Part shown: piece after piece, positions 1 to 5,202 of the stretch | Numbering within the stretch: position 1 is the stretch's first letter | Layout of the letters: each line of letters starts with the position of its first letter | Assembly: GCA_009392075.1 (NCBI GenBank) | Contig: VFHG01000027.1 | Location: forward strand, 1-5,202 | DNA: 5,202 nt | Reading direction: 5' to 3' | Source of the DNA: SAR202 cluster bacterium | GTDB lineage: Bacteria > Chloroflexota > Dehalococcoidia > UBA3495 | Translations under genes and position numbers: made by a program | The notes under the pieces: generated by a model | Databases searched by the model: none | What the model saw: the letters and a program-made list of their open reading frames with translations, nothing else | What the model was told of the DNA's origin: nothing

Positions 1-1431
1 TTTGGCCTGTCTAATCCGCTCGTGACGCCGGTCTCGCATAGCGATAGGGACGATAGACCGGGCAAAGCGGCCTACCAGATCGGCATAAAAATCTTCGACT
101 GAGACCTTCAGTAGGTCTCGACTTATTCCGGGTTTCCGAACGACCTCGTCAGCCGTCTGTGCGGTGGTGCCTGCCATAAGGACCAACAGACTATCGATCT
201 CATCGTCTTCTAGTCCATTAGCTAAAAGGACAAGGATGTCCGCGCTCACCAGCCTCTCGCGGACTTGGTAAAAGACATCGCCTACCATCGTTTCCAAGAA
301 GAACCACTCTTCTAGGTCCTCTGGCGAGGGGAACGGCACACCAGGTTTCGAGGTGGCTGCCTCGAAATAAAATGCTCTGATATCGGCGGTGAGATAACGC
401 AGCAACTGGGGCATCGGATGAGCATAACCATCCGGGACTTCCATGTCGGCGTCCGCTGAGAAGTTCACCAAGACCCCGAGCATCTCGCCGATGGAGTCGG
501 GTCCTTTGCCGCTCGTTCCGACGGTGGTGCGGCCCCGCCTGCGGAGTCCTTCATCGAACCATGGCCGCAGCAGTTGAGTTTCCCTACGCAATTGGGCCTT
601 CAACGAGTCGGACTCGGTATGTGGTTCAGCCGTAGGGAAAATCACAGGGCAAGACCATCCCTCCTCGTCGGGGATATCGTCTTCAATTATGTCGGGATAG
701 TCGACCAGTGCGGGGGCGGCTGGCTGGTCCACCAATCCCAAGGTTTGGCGTAATACGTCGATCTGGACATCAGGGCGATTGGGCGGGCCCAACGGCCGAC
801 CCAACGGGAACGGCACCCACAATGCCCGAGGCGGCCGCACTGCTTCTGAGACTGGTCTGATCAGGCTCACCTGGACCGTCGCAATACCGGCGCCGCCTTC
901 GCTTACAGCACGTTCTATGTATTGAGAGAGTACGCCCACGGCGTAGGTGCAATTGGGTCAAACAGGTATGAGCAACACCAGATTAACGTGGTCTCCGAGA
1001 AGGAATTTTGAAACCTCAGTTGCGGCCTGTTCCATACGCTCGGGCGCCGTTGATCCCATGAAAGAATAATGCCAGTCCGCGACGGACCTAATCTCCTTGG
1101 AGCCAACCAAGGTCCTCAAGTGGTCCAGGGGAAAACAAACGTTCACATCTTGTTGGTATGCGCTGCGGTCAAAGTTCGTGCTGGAGTGCGTCATCGCCAG
1201 GTCTTTATAGGCGATATCGCCGGGTATGATGCGGTAATCGCCCTCGTGACCAGAAAATGGCCGGTCATCGGACCGGTGGATCGCAGCCGTTGTTACGATG
1301 GCGACCCGGGCGTCGGTCAACTTCGGGGCTTCTACCCAGGCAGTCTGTTCAAAAGGCGGGGAGTATCTCCGGCCTAACCGCTCCTTTAGACTCGCCTGTT
1401 CATTTGGATGAATATCTTCCCAACGGACCAT
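1..1431 (-). CDS. GrdB-like selenoprotein (glycine/sarcosine/betaine reductase selenoprotein B family), partial, in-frame UGA read as Sec
   Basis: The frame opens at ATG 1431-1429, meets one TGA at 960-958, and then stays open for 319 codons to the left edge, so 477 residues including Sec158 are visible and the C-terminus is missing. I translated the whole stretch by hand and found no other stop. The N-terminal 157 residues carry family landmarks: VAIVTTAAIHR (about 44-54), a GDYRIIPGD block, NVCFPLDHLR (about 97-106), ADWHYSFMGS, then LLIPV-U-PNC. Residues after the UGA continue the same domain (PPRALWVPFPLGRPLG, about 197-212). Known family members have Cys or Sec at this place, giving a CxxC/UxxC redox pair. 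GrdB proteins use Sec for reductive cleavage of amino-acid C-N bonds; the substrate here is unknown and GrdA/C/D are absent. Beyond about residue 230 lies an acidic, probably helical region with WSCPVIFPT and RRRGRTTVGTSG blocks. No good Shine-Dalgarno precedes the ATG; an in-frame TGA at 1461-1459 limits the start upstream. Confidence 0.85.
931..945 (-). promoter_or_regulatory. Candidate bacterial SECIS stem-loop downstream of the UGA
   Basis: In the mRNA, UACGCC (945-940) pairs perfectly with GGCGUA (936-931) around a GUG triloop (939-937). There are 18 nt between the UGA and the loop. The loop begins with G and contains U, which fits the general bSECIS model of a short stem, a small loop with an early G, and a UGA-to-loop distance of roughly 16-37 nt. 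A short lower helix is possible between AUUG (953-950) and CAAU (924-921). The element lies inside coding sequence, as bacterial SECIS elements do. Fold and SelB binding are inferred, not shown. Confidence 0.65.
958..960 (-). other. In-frame UGA, predicted selenocysteine codon (Sec158)
   Basis: The codon reads TGA on strand - between GTT (Val157) and CCC (Pro159), followed by Asn and Cys, giving U-P-N-C. Homologues of the GrdB-like family are known with Cys or Sec at this position. Coding similarity continues on both sides in the same frame, which a true stop would not explain. A bSECIS-like stem-loop follows at the right distance. A nonsense mutation is the main alternative. Confidence 0.85.
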
Positions 1432-1955: not shown

Positions 1956-3059
1956 TTAGCCCCACACTTTGCGTACGGTATCTACGACCAGTTCCAACTT
2001 CCGGCGTTGGTCTTCATCAGAAAGCAAATTACCCTCGGCAACTGAAGCGAACCCACACTGCGGGCTGAGTGCCAACTGATTAATTGGCAGGTATTTTGTT
2101 GCCTCGTCGATGCGGTGCAATATATCGTCTTGTTTTTCCAGCTGACCATGTTTAGTCGTTATCAAGCCCAATACCACCGTTTTTCCGCTGGGTACGAACC
2201 TAAGGGGATCGAACGCCCCTGCTCGGTCGCTGTCGTATTCCAACAAGAATCTGTCTACATTGAGCGACGAAAATACCTGCTCAGCTAGCCAGTCGTAACC
2301 GCCACTTCGTCCCCAACGGCTTCTCGAATTACCACGACAGATATGGATGGCTAGAGTTACATTTTCCTTAGAAACGGAATCGTAACATGCATTTTCGGCC
2401 GCAATGTCCGCCGCCAATCTCATATCAGGATCTTCCCCATTCCTTCGTAGCTGATCTAACCAATCTGCGCTTATGTAGTCAGTAAATCCCTCGTCGAGCT
2501 GGATGTAGGAAACTCCATCAGAAACGAGGGCGAGCATTTCACTCCGGACAATCTCCACCAGTTCTGCCAAGAACAACTCACGTGTAGCGTAGGCCTCGCT
2601 GGTAACTCCGTCTTTGTAGCCGCTTCTGGATATAGAAACAGGACTGGGCATGGTTATTTTGAAAGGGCCAGGGGAATGCCGCTTCAAAAATGATGATTCG
2701 TGCCCTGTTAATCGTTGAGTCTGGAGCAATTTGCTCGCCGCTATCTTCGACCGGCTCGGTTCGTCAACAATACTCCCATCTGGATTGTGCCATCGGAGGA
2801 TATTGTGATCGTCAATGAAGCCCTCTACTGCGTCAGCTAGATCAGACATCCACGCATCTCGACGCATCTCGCCATCACTAAACACTTCGATGCCGACTTG
2901 CTTCTGCATTGCCAACACGTCAATTATCGCCTCGTCTTCTAGCGAACGTAATTGTTCTAAACCTATCATGTCGGCTTTATAGGCCTGCCTTGCTTGTAGG
3001 AGTTCTGTGGGGCGCAACAGGCTTCCTACTTGGTCGGCTTTAAATTCCGGTTTCGGCAT
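1956..3059 (-). CDS. Cobalamin-independent methionine synthase-like (MetE C-terminal/YxjG-type) zinc methyl/alkyltransferase
   Basis: The 367-aa product is a single TIM-barrel-type domain about the size of the MetE C-terminal half and of YxjG- or epoxyalkane:CoM transferase-type relatives. Visible family blocks are VGSLLRP (11-17), SDGEMRRDAW (61-70), TMPSP (136-140), IQLDEG (186-191), HICRGN (239-244), LLEYDSDRAG (272-281), GLITTKHGQLE (298-308) and LSPQCGF (331-337). By analogy with MetE, His239, Cys241, Glu274 and Cys335 are the zinc ligands, all present. The family alkylates a zinc-bound thiolate; methyl donor and thiol acceptor here cannot be told from sequence, and methionine synthesis proper is uncertain since the MetE N-terminal half is absent. 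ATG 3059 is preceded by AGGTGG at a good distance. Modules A/B lie past its 3' end and C upstream. A cytosolic enzyme; no signal peptide. Confidence 0.9.
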   Translation of the reverse strand: MPKPEFKADQVGSLLRPTELLQARQAYKADMIGLEQLRSLEDEAIIDVLAMQKQVGIEVFSDGEMRRDAWMSDLADAVEGFIDDHNILRWHNPDGSIVDEPSRSKIAASKLLQTQRLTGHESSFLKRHSPGPFKITMPSPVSISRSGYKDGVTSEAYATRELFLAELVEIVRSEMLALVSDGVSYIQLDEGFTDYISADWLDQLRRNGEDPDMRLAADIAAENACYDSVSKENVTLAIHICRGNSRSRWGRSGGYDWLAEQVFSSLNVDRFLLEYDSDRAGAFDPLRFVPSGKTVVLGLITTKHGQLEKQDDILHRIDEATKYLPINQLALSPQCGFASVAEGNLLSDEDQRRKLELVVDTVRKVWG

Positions 3060-3189: not shown

Positions 3190-3221
3190 GTGACACGTGT
3201 GTCACCATCTACCTGGCGATA
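3190..3221 (-). promoter_or_regulatory. Operator module C (32 bp) upstream of the MetE-like gene
   Basis: On strand + it reads GTGACAC-GT-GTGTCAC (3190-3205, 7-bp perfect arms), one base, then ATCTACCTGGCGATA (3207-3221). It is 27/32 identical to module A, and the arm differences at positions 5 and 12 are compensatory, so symmetry is kept. On strand - the tail contains TAGATG just before the palindrome, consistent with an operator at the start of transcription of the MetE-like gene about 140 bp away. The hydrolase on the other side could also respond. Confidence 0.6.
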
Positions 3222-3423: not shown

Positions 3424-3477
3424 GTCGCCACCAGTTACAATGAACCCAATACGGTCCGTTGAAACCTACCTTTTATC

Positions 3478-3483
3478 AAGGAG
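3478..3483 (+). promoter_or_regulatory. Shine-Dalgarno that fixes the hydrolase start at GTG 3492
   Basis: AAGGAG lies 8 nt before GTG 3492. An upstream in-frame TTG at 3459 would add 11 residues but has no ribosome-binding site and would place this AAGGAG inside the coding sequence. Confidence 0.75.
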
Positions 3484-3491
3484 TAACTATC

Positions 3492-4238
3492 GTGCCGATC
3501 TTTACCAATGGCGATGTCAGCATCCACTACGAAGAAGCAGGGTCCGGTTTCCCGCTTCTGGCCACACCCGGCGGGGGATTGAACTCCCTAGTCAGCAATT
3601 GGCCTGGCCAAGTGTTCGACGCCATGGAGGAGTTCAAGAACGATTTCCGCTGCATCACCATGGACCAGCGCAACGCCAACGGCGGCGAGTCTAGCGGGCC
3701 GGTCCCAGTCGACGATCCGTGGGGCGCATTCGCCGACGATCAACTGGCGTTATTGGACCACCTAGGCGTAGATAAGTTCTTGTTCATCGGATACTGCATC
3801 GGCGGCCCGTTTGCGCTAAAACTCATGGAACGGGCGCCTGAGCGAATCGTGGCCGGCGTGCTCTGCCAGCCGGTGGGCCACAATGCCAAGTTCCCTGATT
3901 CCATGTACGACTCCGGTCATGATCTTTGGGGGCCTGTGTTGTCCGACCGCCGGGACGACGTGACCATGGAGACCGTCGATGCCTACCTAAACAACCTCTA
4001 CCGCGTCGATTCAACCGACTTCGTTTACAGCGTGTCCCGCGACTTCGTGCGTACGTGTCAGACTCCGATGCTAGTCATGCCTGACAACACACCGTCGCAC
4101 TCGTACGAGGCTGCCATCGAAGTGATTGAATTGGCTCCAAATGCCGAGTCAACGGTTTATCCCTGGAAAGAAGACCCGGACATTTTGGCCAAGACCATCA
4201 ACCAAGTCCGCGATTACCTCAAGGCACATCAAGTTTAA
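3492..4238 (+). CDS. Alpha/beta hydrolase with Cys nucleophile (GYCIGG elbow)
   Basis: The 248-aa product starts at GTG with a clear AAGGAG. It shows the alpha/beta hydrolase order: N-terminal strand pair (IHYEEAGSG, 11-19), oxyanion-loop type TPGGG (25-29), CITMDQRNANGGES (54-67), then the nucleophile elbow FIGYCIGG (98-105) with Cys102 replacing the usual Ser. MDQRN followed by GCIGG-type elbows is a combination I associate with a poorly characterised hydrolase family; dienelactone hydrolase also uses Cys in a GYCxGG elbow. Asp198 and His203 in MPDNTPSH are the likely remaining triad members, and the C-terminal tail (YPWKEDPD) lacks the usual late His. The substrate is unknown; esters, thioesters or lactones are possible. 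No signal peptide. A strong terminator follows 31 nt after the stop, so it is probably monocistronic apart from any upstream small ORF. Confidence 0.88.
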   Translation: MPIFTNGDVSIHYEEAGSGFPLLATPGGGLNSLVSNWPGQVFDAMEEFKNDFRCITMDQRNANGGESSGPVPVDDPWGAFADDQLALLDHLGVDKFLFIGYCIGGPFALKLMERAPERIVAGVLCQPVGHNAKFPDSMYDSGHDLWGPVLSDRRDDVTMETVDAYLNNLYRVDSTDFVYSVSRDFVRTCQTPMLVMPDNTPSHSYEAAIEVIELAPNAESTVYPWKEDPDILAKTINQVRDYLKAHQV

Positions 4239-4308: not shown

Positions 4309-4401
4309 GGCTGCTCGCCAACGGACCCGGCACGAACCCATCCGACTGTGTATGCATCAAACACTTGCGAGAAACACCCACGTTTGAGTGCACGGGAAAA
4401 C

Positions 4402-4407
4402 TCTAAT
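4402..4407 (+). promoter_or_regulatory. Possible -10 element of the first cupin gene
   Basis: TCTAAT (4402-4407) ends 10 nt before ATG 4418, so a transcript starting around 4414 would be almost leaderless. No convincing -35 is seen at 16-18 bp. This supports the 4418 start over the GTG at 4388, which would overlap the element. Confidence 0.25.
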
Positions 4408-4417
4408 CGAATCAAAG

Positions 4418-4735
4418 ATGCACGATAAGAAAATGGCCGGAGGAGACGCAGTTCAAATCGCACCTCATGTTTACAAGGTTGTTCTGGAGAACGAGCATGT
4501 GAGGGTGTTGTACACCCGCACTGGACCCGGTGACAGTTCCGAGATGCACAGCCATCCCAACATGGTTGGTTACGCGATATCCGATTGCACGTGGGACCTT
4601 ACGGGCCCAGACGGCCCCACGGTCCTAGTACCAGTCAAAGCCGGTGAGACCTTTTACTTGGACGCGGTTGACCATTCCGCGCACGATGTCGGGACCACCG
4701 GTTCCCACGCTCTGTTGATCGAACTGAAGAAGTAG
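4418..4735 (+). CDS. Small single-domain cupin protein
   Basis: The 105-aa product has one cupin barrel. Motif 1 is seen as GDSSEMHSHPNMVGYAIS (38-55) with His44 and His46 as metal ligands; the usual Glu of motif 1 is absent. Motif 2 is AGETFYLDAVDHSAHDVG (75-92) with His86 and His89 as candidate third ligand. The ENEHVRVL (24-31) opening and HALLIELKK end are typical of short cupin proteins whose members are mostly uncharacterised metal-binding enzymes or sensors. Possible starts are GTG 4388, ATG 4418 and ATG 4433; none has a strong Shine-Dalgarno, and 4418 is chosen because an AT-rich -10-like box sits just upstream and the family domain begins after residue 10. It lies between two terminators, so it is probably its own transcription unit. 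The cytosolic function is unknown. Confidence 0.85.
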   Translation: MHDKKMAGGDAVQIAPHVYKVVLENEHVRVLYTRTGPGDSSEMHSHPNMVGYAISDCTWDLTGPDGPTVLVPVKAGETFYLDAVDHSAHDVGTTGSHALLIELKK

Positions 4736-4905: not shown

Positions 4906-5202
4906 CTGCACGCAGACTCGGGCGTCGAGACGCACTTCGAGGATGTGGAGATTGAGTTCGCGGAAGGGACGGTCACATCCGGTAGCAATCCGGGAGGGCT
5001 GTCGGCTCCTCAGCCAACCTCGGATTCTTTCTTCGCCACCTACTACAGCGCCTTTTTTGTTGATTTCCATCCGACTCCACGAACGCAGTGGTTCGTTGTT
5101 TTATCGTTAGTATGGGAGTTCGGTGCTAGCGACGGTGAAGTCCGGAGAGTGGAATGCGGCGACGTGGTTCCCCTAGACGACATGGATAGCAAAGGCCACA
5201 CA
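4906..5202 (+). CDS. Second cupin-like protein, 3' end cut by window edge, unclear start
   Basis: The frame from 4900 to 5202 is open and reads as a second cupin family. Landmarks are ADSGVETHFEDVEIEF, then DFHPTPRTQWFVVLS, ASDGEVRRVECGDVVPLDD and DSKGHT at the edge, in the order HPxPRxQ, SDGE, GDV, GKGH that I recall for this group. The in-frame codon just before is TAG (4897-4899), and no ATG, GTG or TTG occurs until GTG 4945, which would remove the ETHFEDV block. CTG 4906 is listed as a provisional start because a promoter candidate would put transcription right there. The sequence departs from the family at normally glycine-rich turns (SLVWEF, VECGD), so gene decay or an N-terminal mutation is possible. 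Identity as coding sequence is fairly sure; start and integrity are not. Confidence 0.6.
   Translation, partial: MHADSGVETHFEDVEIEFAEGTVTSGSNPGGLSAPQPTSDSFFATYYSAFFVDFHPTPRTQWFVVLSLVWEFGASDGEVRRVECGDVVPLDDMDSKGHT

Follow-up and report, generated by a model that had tools for sequence, protein, structure and literature searches.

Does the in-frame TGA near one end of contig VFHG01000027.1 (assembly GCA_009392075.1, SAR202 cluster bacterium) terminate a short protein, or is it read as selenocysteine (Sec) within a long one, and what reaction might such a protein catalyze? The window, i.e. the whole stretch of 5,202 nucleotides (nt) analysed here, carries on its minus strand a gene of the PrdB/GrdB superfamily (1..1431, ATG at 1431-1429; 477 codons in the window). 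Its frame encodes 157 residues (1431-961), meets the TGA (960-958) and then runs for 319 stop-free codons to the window edge. Judged from sequence comparison, the UGA of codon 158 is decoded as Sec with a probability of about 95%, and the predicted product is very likely one selenoprotein of approximately 479 residues. Assuming equal base use, 319 consecutive sense codons would arise by chance at about 2e-7, i.e. (61/64)^319. The first-pass annotation, made from the letters of the DNA, had proposed this continuous frame; translation of minus 1431..1 agrees with it, and the downstream part has many homologues. About two or three residues and the stop codon lie beyond the window edge, judging from where the 96%-identical database protein P0002 and the orthologues L001-L004 and L006 terminate; the window therefore holds nearly the whole gene.

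The TGA is conserved among relatives. A scan of GTDB contigs recovered eight loci (L001-L008), seven labelled Chloroflexi/Dehalococcoidia and one (L007) Alphaproteobacteria; the metagenome-assembled genomes of these named relatives are presumably marine and of the SAR202 group. All seven loci that span the site, i.e. six Chloroflexi/Dehalococcoidia orthologues and L007, have TGA at the Sec position. The site was then read in PrdB-type loci with a tblastn E <= 1e-5 and an alignment spanning residues 150-170, which are best matches and not a random sample. Among 89 places, 82 of them distinct (window included), there were 78 TGA, three TGC and one TGT; all sites read thus carry either TGA or a Cys codon, which supports the original proposal of a single gene with Sec as its residue 158. 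On a tree of these 82 proteins, three changes are needed to explain the Cys forms, and every Cys branch joins a Sec form. Because independent assemblies repeat the same TGA, it is not a sequencing error for TGC or TGT, a possibility raised together with the original proposal. In the class of G006 (the genome carrying L006, labelled Dehalococcoidia), 128 of 393 genomes match at E <= 1e-3, with at most four candidates scored per genome, and all matches listed contain TGA. Among the Alphaproteobacteria, 39 of 337 genomes match at E <= 1e-10; the 68 matches listed for this class comprise 58 with TGA, nine without a stop and one with TAG only. Relatives occur in these two classes, and some genomes carry several copies.

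Purifying selection acts on the part downstream of the TGA: against five orthologues the ratio of non-synonymous to synonymous changes (pN/pS) was 0.12-0.17 before the TGA and 0.21-0.28 after it. UGA also terminates the same gene in four of the seven loci (L001, L004, L005 and L007), and hence the codon is not simply reassigned in these hosts.

A putative bacterial selenocysteine insertion sequence (bSECIS) lies at 931..945 on the minus strand. This hairpin starts 12 nt after the UGA (UACGCC-GUG-GGCGUA) and has a stem of six base pairs and a loop beginning with GU. The criteria given in the available part of a published study are a loop of 3-9 nt with G in one of its first two positions, a distance of 16-37 nt from the UGA and a stem of at least 4 bp (PMC13188914); the window hairpin, with loop GUG, a spacing of 18 nt and 6 bp, lies within these ranges. 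Across the 78 TGA sites, 85% of the cells of the stem are paired, versus 30-55% after sliding one arm by 1-3 positions. At least five of seven pairs form at 77 of 78 sites, two stem pairs are present at all 78 (one of them with six pair types), and G is the first loop base at all 78. Under this model a contiguous stem of four or more pairs is found at 71 sites, and one of three at the other seven. Family-wide, comparison with synonymous-codon shuffles gave z scores of 17 (pairs), -15.7 (stem energy) and -6.2 (overall energy), values which overstate the certainty since related sequences are not independent. The four Cys sites, a small number, show no hairpin excess (z 0.9, -1.3 and 0.1), and two of them can still make six of seven pairs. 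Over the family as a whole, the signal is strong that the UGA is followed by a covarying hairpin conforming to the bacterial SECIS model. The window gave no Rfam match at the gathering threshold, and positions 1-1900 none at E <= 1; to our knowledge, Rfam contains no general bacterial SECIS model.

The machinery for Sec insertion was checked in the seven genomes behind L001-L007, i.e. in relatives of the window's source. This check, suggested in the first-pass annotation, showed it to be largely present: SelB scored above cut-off in 7/7 genomes, tRNA-Sec(UCA) was found in 6/7 and SelD above cut-off in 6/7. In five of these genomes SelD (loci L056-L059 and L061) is itself likely a selenoprotein, because it has its own in-frame TGA. 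A class-wide scan for SelB (E <= 1e-60, three candidates scored per genome, lists entered by hand) detected it in 49 of the 50 class genomes with a strong match to our protein (E <= 1e-40), versus 211 of the 343 others, and in 111 of the 128 with any match (E <= 1e-3).

The manner in which databases store the gene mirrors the TGA. A search with the read-through protein yielded 291 relatives (7997 candidates scored), of which 120 were listed. Of these, 116 cover merely 51-66% of the query, and the 13 inspected are all downstream pieces starting just after the TGA or further on, such as P0002 (315 aa). Among the matches listed, only P0117 and P0119-P0121 reach about 75% coverage, and these have Cys at the Sec site. 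With the upstream piece as query, 924 relatives were found; 114 of the 120 listed have 152-159 aa, the length of the TGA-cut protein, including P0122 with 99% identity to the window protein. Some upstream pieces are named 'selenoprotein B glycine/betaine/sarcosine/D-proline reductase' or 'D-proline reductase (dithiol) PrdB'. As entries end at or begin after the TGA, annotation recognises the family but splits the gene in two, and the C-terminal helical part is stored solely inside separate downstream pieces. Homologues ending naturally at residue 157 were not seen; where database pieces have such a length, they stop at the TGA although the gene itself runs on. The expectation that a standard gene caller would cut the protein at 157 residues was borne out, but bases 1-957 would not be left empty, as ORF (open reading frame) finding places a downstream ORF with its start at GTG 939. 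A protein re-initiated there would lack Cys161, as the codon of this residue precedes the GTG. A search of viral contigs gave no relative; on plasmids 22 records matched, none over more than 46% of the query, and 15 of the 20 listed are annotated as prdB.

The read-through protein affiliates most closely with PrdB. Its best curated profile was TIGR04483 (PrdB; E 8e-27, 94.2 bits), for which the cut-off of 300 was not reached. The 157-residue piece alone scores 64 bits (E 1.5e-17) against the same profile, and the increase to 94 bits indicates that homology crosses the TGA; the downstream piece alone matched no family among the Pfam and NCBIfam profiles. The GrdB subfamily profile TIGR01918 gave 41.8 bits (cut-off 65.45) over positions 220-398 of 431, and every NCBIfam GrdB-type score (TIGR01917, TIGR01918, NF040794 and NF040795) remained under its cut-off. 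The only curated cut-off reached is that of Pfam's PF07355 (GRDB; 25.5 bits, gathering cut-off 22), over its last third (223-344 of 347). The original label GrdB is consequently better replaced by PrdB-type, since the PrdB profile is best and the GrdB profiles are matched only beyond roughly position 220; the family is closest to PrdB rather than GrdB, and by the curated cut-offs it is neither. An alignment (A3) of 69 rows was built from the window protein and 68 of 69 long relatives (L072 was left out). All 69 members match PrdB and GrdB-type profiles at E <= 1e-3, with best E-values of 4.8e-50 for PrdB and 1.3e-18 for GrdB types.

The TGA (958..960) occupies the first position of a UxxC motif (U-P-N-C), the partner Cys161 of which (949..951) is invariant in A3. 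The placement of the TGA in the known Cys/Sec position of the family was confirmed: its column aligns exactly with the Sec of Terrisporobacter PrdB (L185) and of a canonical GrdB from G006 (L080). Residues common to all six rows of that alignment include His82, Asp88, Asp103, Gly126, Glu173 and Gly182. The family-like stretch PPRALWVPFPLGRPLG, which had been placed directly after the TGA, actually starts at residue 200, 42 residues later; it is PNCTYAVG that adjoins the TGA. Both the alignment and an AlphaFold2 model of the whole read-through protein divide it into an N-terminal alpha/beta domain with the Sec (approximately residues 1-250; 682..1431, minus strand) and a C-terminal all-helical part (approximately residues 273-477; 1..615, minus strand). 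The model is one confident fold, with a predicted local distance difference test (pLDDT) score of 89.9 and a predicted template modelling (pTM) score of 0.90. Three of the Cys forms (P0119, L174 and L175) are encoded by a single ORF.

Several observations weigh against a Sec-dependent enzyme at this locus. The window hairpin reaches -7.4 kcal/mol over 45 nt, slightly short of the limit of -7.5 kcal/mol or lower stated in the accessible part of the source of the criteria (PMC13188914). Taken by itself, this hairpin is weak: as many pairs are seen in 32.5% of the window's synonymous shuffles, a stem energy as good in 10.5%, and an overall folding energy as good in 84%. In the genome G004 no tRNA-Sec was found; its best match is a tRNA-Ser despite passing the Rfam score, which makes the Rfam tally of 7/7 too generous. 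SelD in G002 scores below cut-off. In the class-wide scan SelB was undetected in 17 of the 128 matching genomes, 16 of them with weak matches (E > 1e-40) and one among the 50 strong ones. In the short-form relatives L182 and L184, Asp takes the place of Cys161. No solved structure or clear fold match supporting a mechanism was found, and an all-against-all comparison of neighbouring ORFs revealed no gene that consistently accompanies the long form in the named loci.

PrdB and GrdB require a pyruvoyl subunit, which activates the amino acid as a Schiff base. In our case, such a partner appears to be missing. PrdA was above cut-off in none of the seven relatives' genomes, and the sole weak match, in G006, falls inside that genome's gene for PF09338, the pyruvoyl-subunit family. 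PF09338 itself was found in 10 of 197 class genomes. Assuming that these 197 are the genomes up to G203 in numbering order, they include 26 with a strong match, and in 25 of these PF09338 was not found. The single exception is again G006, where the PF09338 gene adjoins a separate, complete GrdB (L080; 452 bits over PF07355 positions 2-347), which carries an in-frame TGA as well. The window protein is hence likely a stand-alone PrdB-type protein, without the usual pyruvoyl partner family in nearly all genomes tested.

The gene neighbourhood gives no substrate, as neighbours are not conserved. A 524-residue GMC oxidoreductase (identified by Pfam in the L006 copy scanned) lies a few kb away in four of the eight named loci (L003, L004, L006 and L008); since its placement and orientation differ between loci, it was not used as context. 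The largest neighbour cluster (32 loci) was taken to be antisense ORFs inside the gene, which coordinates confirm for L004. Tandem PrdB-type pairs, each gene with its own TGA, occur in L067, L068, L069 and L081; the two tandem copies of L067-L069 sit on separate tree branches, and in some class genomes tandem pairs are near RecQ-type and Lhr-type helicase genes. The Cys form L174, of the Alphaproteobacteria class, adjoins what we take to be a TauD/TfdA dioxygenase-like gene, near a presumed TetR-like regulator; these neighbours are a possible hint of a catabolic role.

A reaction scheme can be outlined from the known relatives. In GrdB and PrdB, according to the available part of a published study, the amine substrate is held by a carbonyl of the complex and attacked by the Sec, after which the Se adduct is either handed on or reduced (PMC13188914); the Schiff-base chemistry of GrdB-type reductases is likewise described in the accessible text of another (PMC10838667). 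For the window protein, SelB and tRNA-Sec would decode UGA 158, directed by the short hairpin 12 nt downstream. The selenolate of Sec158, set in U-P-N-C with Cys161, might then attack a small substrate, either at an electrophilic carbon-heteroatom bond or at a disulfide. Cys161 would resolve the Se adduct as a selenenyl sulfide, which a cellular dithiol would re-reduce. The pocket for the substrate is probably closed off by the extra helical domain, which would take over the partner's part in shaping it. Because most tested genomes are without the pyruvoyl subunit, the substrate probably needs no Schiff-base activation. That the protein reductively cleaves a small organic substrate, rather than serving another redox role, is a tentative proposal with somewhat less than even odds. 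More doubtful is a broader scheme, in which a PrdB-type Sec domain and its own helical domain would form a distinct class of stand-alone selenoenzymes, with the selenolate cleaving carbon-heteroatom bonds of dissolved organics in Chloroflexota and Alphaproteobacteria. It would be one arm of a selenium-based catabolism, the other arm being UGSC-type selenoproteins, expanded to at least 93 genes in one genome.

About as likely as a reductase is a Sec-dependent protein of thiol redox or detoxification, i.e. a scavenger of peroxides, disulfides or electrophiles. The UxxC motif, the lack of a conserved partner gene and the distribution of relatives over two classes, with several copies in some genomes, would all suit such a role; by inspection, on the other hand, the model is not thioredoxin-like (an alpha/beta domain with the Sec at a helix start), and His82, Asp88 and other residues are common with amino acid reductases. 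It is improbable that the protein is a true D-proline (or glycine-type) reductase subunit whose PrdA or GrdE is encoded elsewhere. PrdB is indeed its best profile and the Sec with its flanks aligns with PrdB and GrdB, but its 94 bits stand against a cut-off of 300, PrdA is above cut-off in 0/7 genomes, and PF09338 is found in 1/26, where it has a GrdB of its own next to it (the search did not extend to GrdA and GrdC/D). A true stop, leaving a pseudogene or two genes with re-initiation at GTG 939, matches the split made by ORF finding and the presence of both pieces in databases, and is nevertheless highly implausible in view of the TGA and Cys codons at all 82 distinct sites, the single-ORF Cys forms, the selection persisting past the TGA, the position of the invariant Cys161 between TGA and GTG, and the one confident model spanning both parts. 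Equally implausible is a reading of UGA as another amino acid such as Trp, organism-wide or by near-cognate suppression, which has only the open frame in its favour and conflicts with the UGA that terminates the same gene in 4/7 loci, with Cys as the alternative residue and the Sec of PrdB/GrdB in the same column, and with the hairpin signal and the SelB association. Decoding of codon 158 as Sec within one gene thus remains the preferred reading.

In the remainder of the window, the neighbours of the selenoprotein gene (a MetE-like protein, an alpha/beta hydrolase and a cupin) were unmatched in L001-L008. The MetE-like protein (1956-3059, minus strand; PF01717) scores 284.7 bits with NF005085, under the cut-off of 313; its gene shares the strand of the selenoprotein gene and precedes it by about 525 bases. 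The alpha/beta hydrolase (3459-4235, plus strand) belongs to PF00561, and a small cupin-like protein (4388-4732, plus strand) matches PF07883 below cut-off. A partial ORF running off the edge (4945-5202, plus strand) has no Pfam match at E <= 1 and presumably resembles a second small cupin. A palindromic motif, GTGANA-N4-TNTCAC followed by NNTCTANC, occurs in three intergenic copies flanking the MetE-like gene (1774-1805, 1879-1910 and 3190-3221). Three copies were reached in 0 of 200 shuffles, and no exact match was found among 184 loci; the motif is possibly an operator or a small dispersed repeat.

A second group of selenoproteins was observed in the class of G006. The UGSC family (NF041046) is found in 60 of 197 class genomes at E <= 1e-3, above cut-off in 39, with TGA in every listed match. 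In G034, a genome bin of approximately 5.0 Mb, the pattern U-G-[S/T]-C-T occurs 102 times versus three for the reversed pattern. Of these sites 100 were fetched (loci L085-L152), and in 93 the frame is open on both sides of the TGA and the sequences are mutually homologous across it; 66 of the genes have at least 130 codons after the TGA and 27 are shorter. With a closest-paralogue identity of 71% in the median and 90% at maximum, they are not near-identical strain copies. Six proteins were scanned, all of them above the Pfam UGSC cut-off and under NCBIfam's stricter one, two narrowly. The hairpin signal is present as well (z 10.6 for stem length), and SelB and ribosomal protein S8 occur in one copy each. 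Against an expansion stand the failure to find a tRNA-Sec in the bin (best match tRNA-Ser; 150 of 734 candidates scored) and the fact that genome bins can be mixtures. By its sequence, G034 would hold no fewer than 93 divergent genes of the UGSC type, each interrupted by an in-frame TGA, exceeding the maximum of 63 predicted selenoprotein genes given in the available part of the published survey (PMC13188914).

Marine PrdB selenoproteins have reportedly been in print since 2005, and a marine PrdB-like selenoprotein is itself not new, as seawater surveys already report one. In the accessible parts of these surveys, 'Proline reductase (prdB)' ranks third in abundance among the selenoprotein families of the Sargasso Sea with 42 Sec genes (PMC1088965), the Global Ocean Sampling counts 235 Sec and 110 Cys prdB genes with UxxC (PMC2398784), and 'proline reductase' contributes 6.4% of the selenoprotein genes recorded by a later marine survey (PMC9402790). 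In the open-licence literature of PubMed Central searched, we came across no account of a long stand-alone form, of the clade that hosts it or of the absence of its partner, and no paper naming both selenoproteins and SAR202. A paper listed for the selenoproteome of Chloroflexota deals with chicken tissue and gut microbes. A sponge-symbiont study that mentions selenocysteine and SAR202 states, in its available text, that SelA and SelB co-occur in most symbiont bins; the text of the deep-Sep paper has no mention of PrdB, GrdB, UGSC or Chloroflex. As a name, PrdB points to the fermentation of D-proline with the help of PrdA, yet nearly all strong-match genomes tested are without PrdA or its partner family. 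If the abundant marine form is the longer, partner-free protein, the role of 'marine PrdB' becomes testable on one complete chain with a confident model, the C-terminal domain of which is hidden by the split storage in databases. The many selenoprotein genes in Dehalococcoidia-class genomes bear, furthermore, on the selenium demand of the habitat.

Among known systems, the PrdB family of the marine surveys shares the Sec and the UxxC motif and very probably includes the long form. As far as their available text goes, the surveys give the family name, counts and motif, and not the full length, host clade, partner status or C-terminal domain. GrdB, GrdF and GrdH are homologous in the Sec column and the His82/Asp88 region, which correspond to the later part of GrdB (profile 220-404); the first approximately 220 residues of GrdB are lacking in the window protein. 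FarB of the Synergistota, for which a part in fluoroacetate reduction has been suggested, is a proposed case of a GrdB-type Sec attacking a bond other than the C-N bond of an amino acid, according to the accessible part of its description (PMC10838667). Unlike the apparently partner-free window protein, FarB is described in the same text as belonging, together with FarE, to a GrdB-like complex of a rumen bacterium that lives anaerobically. PrdB from a plasmid of Terrisporobacter petrolearius (NZ_CP154621.1) is homologous over approximately residues 24-235 with 28-30% identity and has its Sec in the same column, within U-G-T-C instead of U-P-N-C. It comprises 241 codons and is encoded one gene after prdA, whereas the window protein runs about 240 residues further and includes approximately 205 extra helical residues with no counterpart in the PrdB/GrdB alignment.

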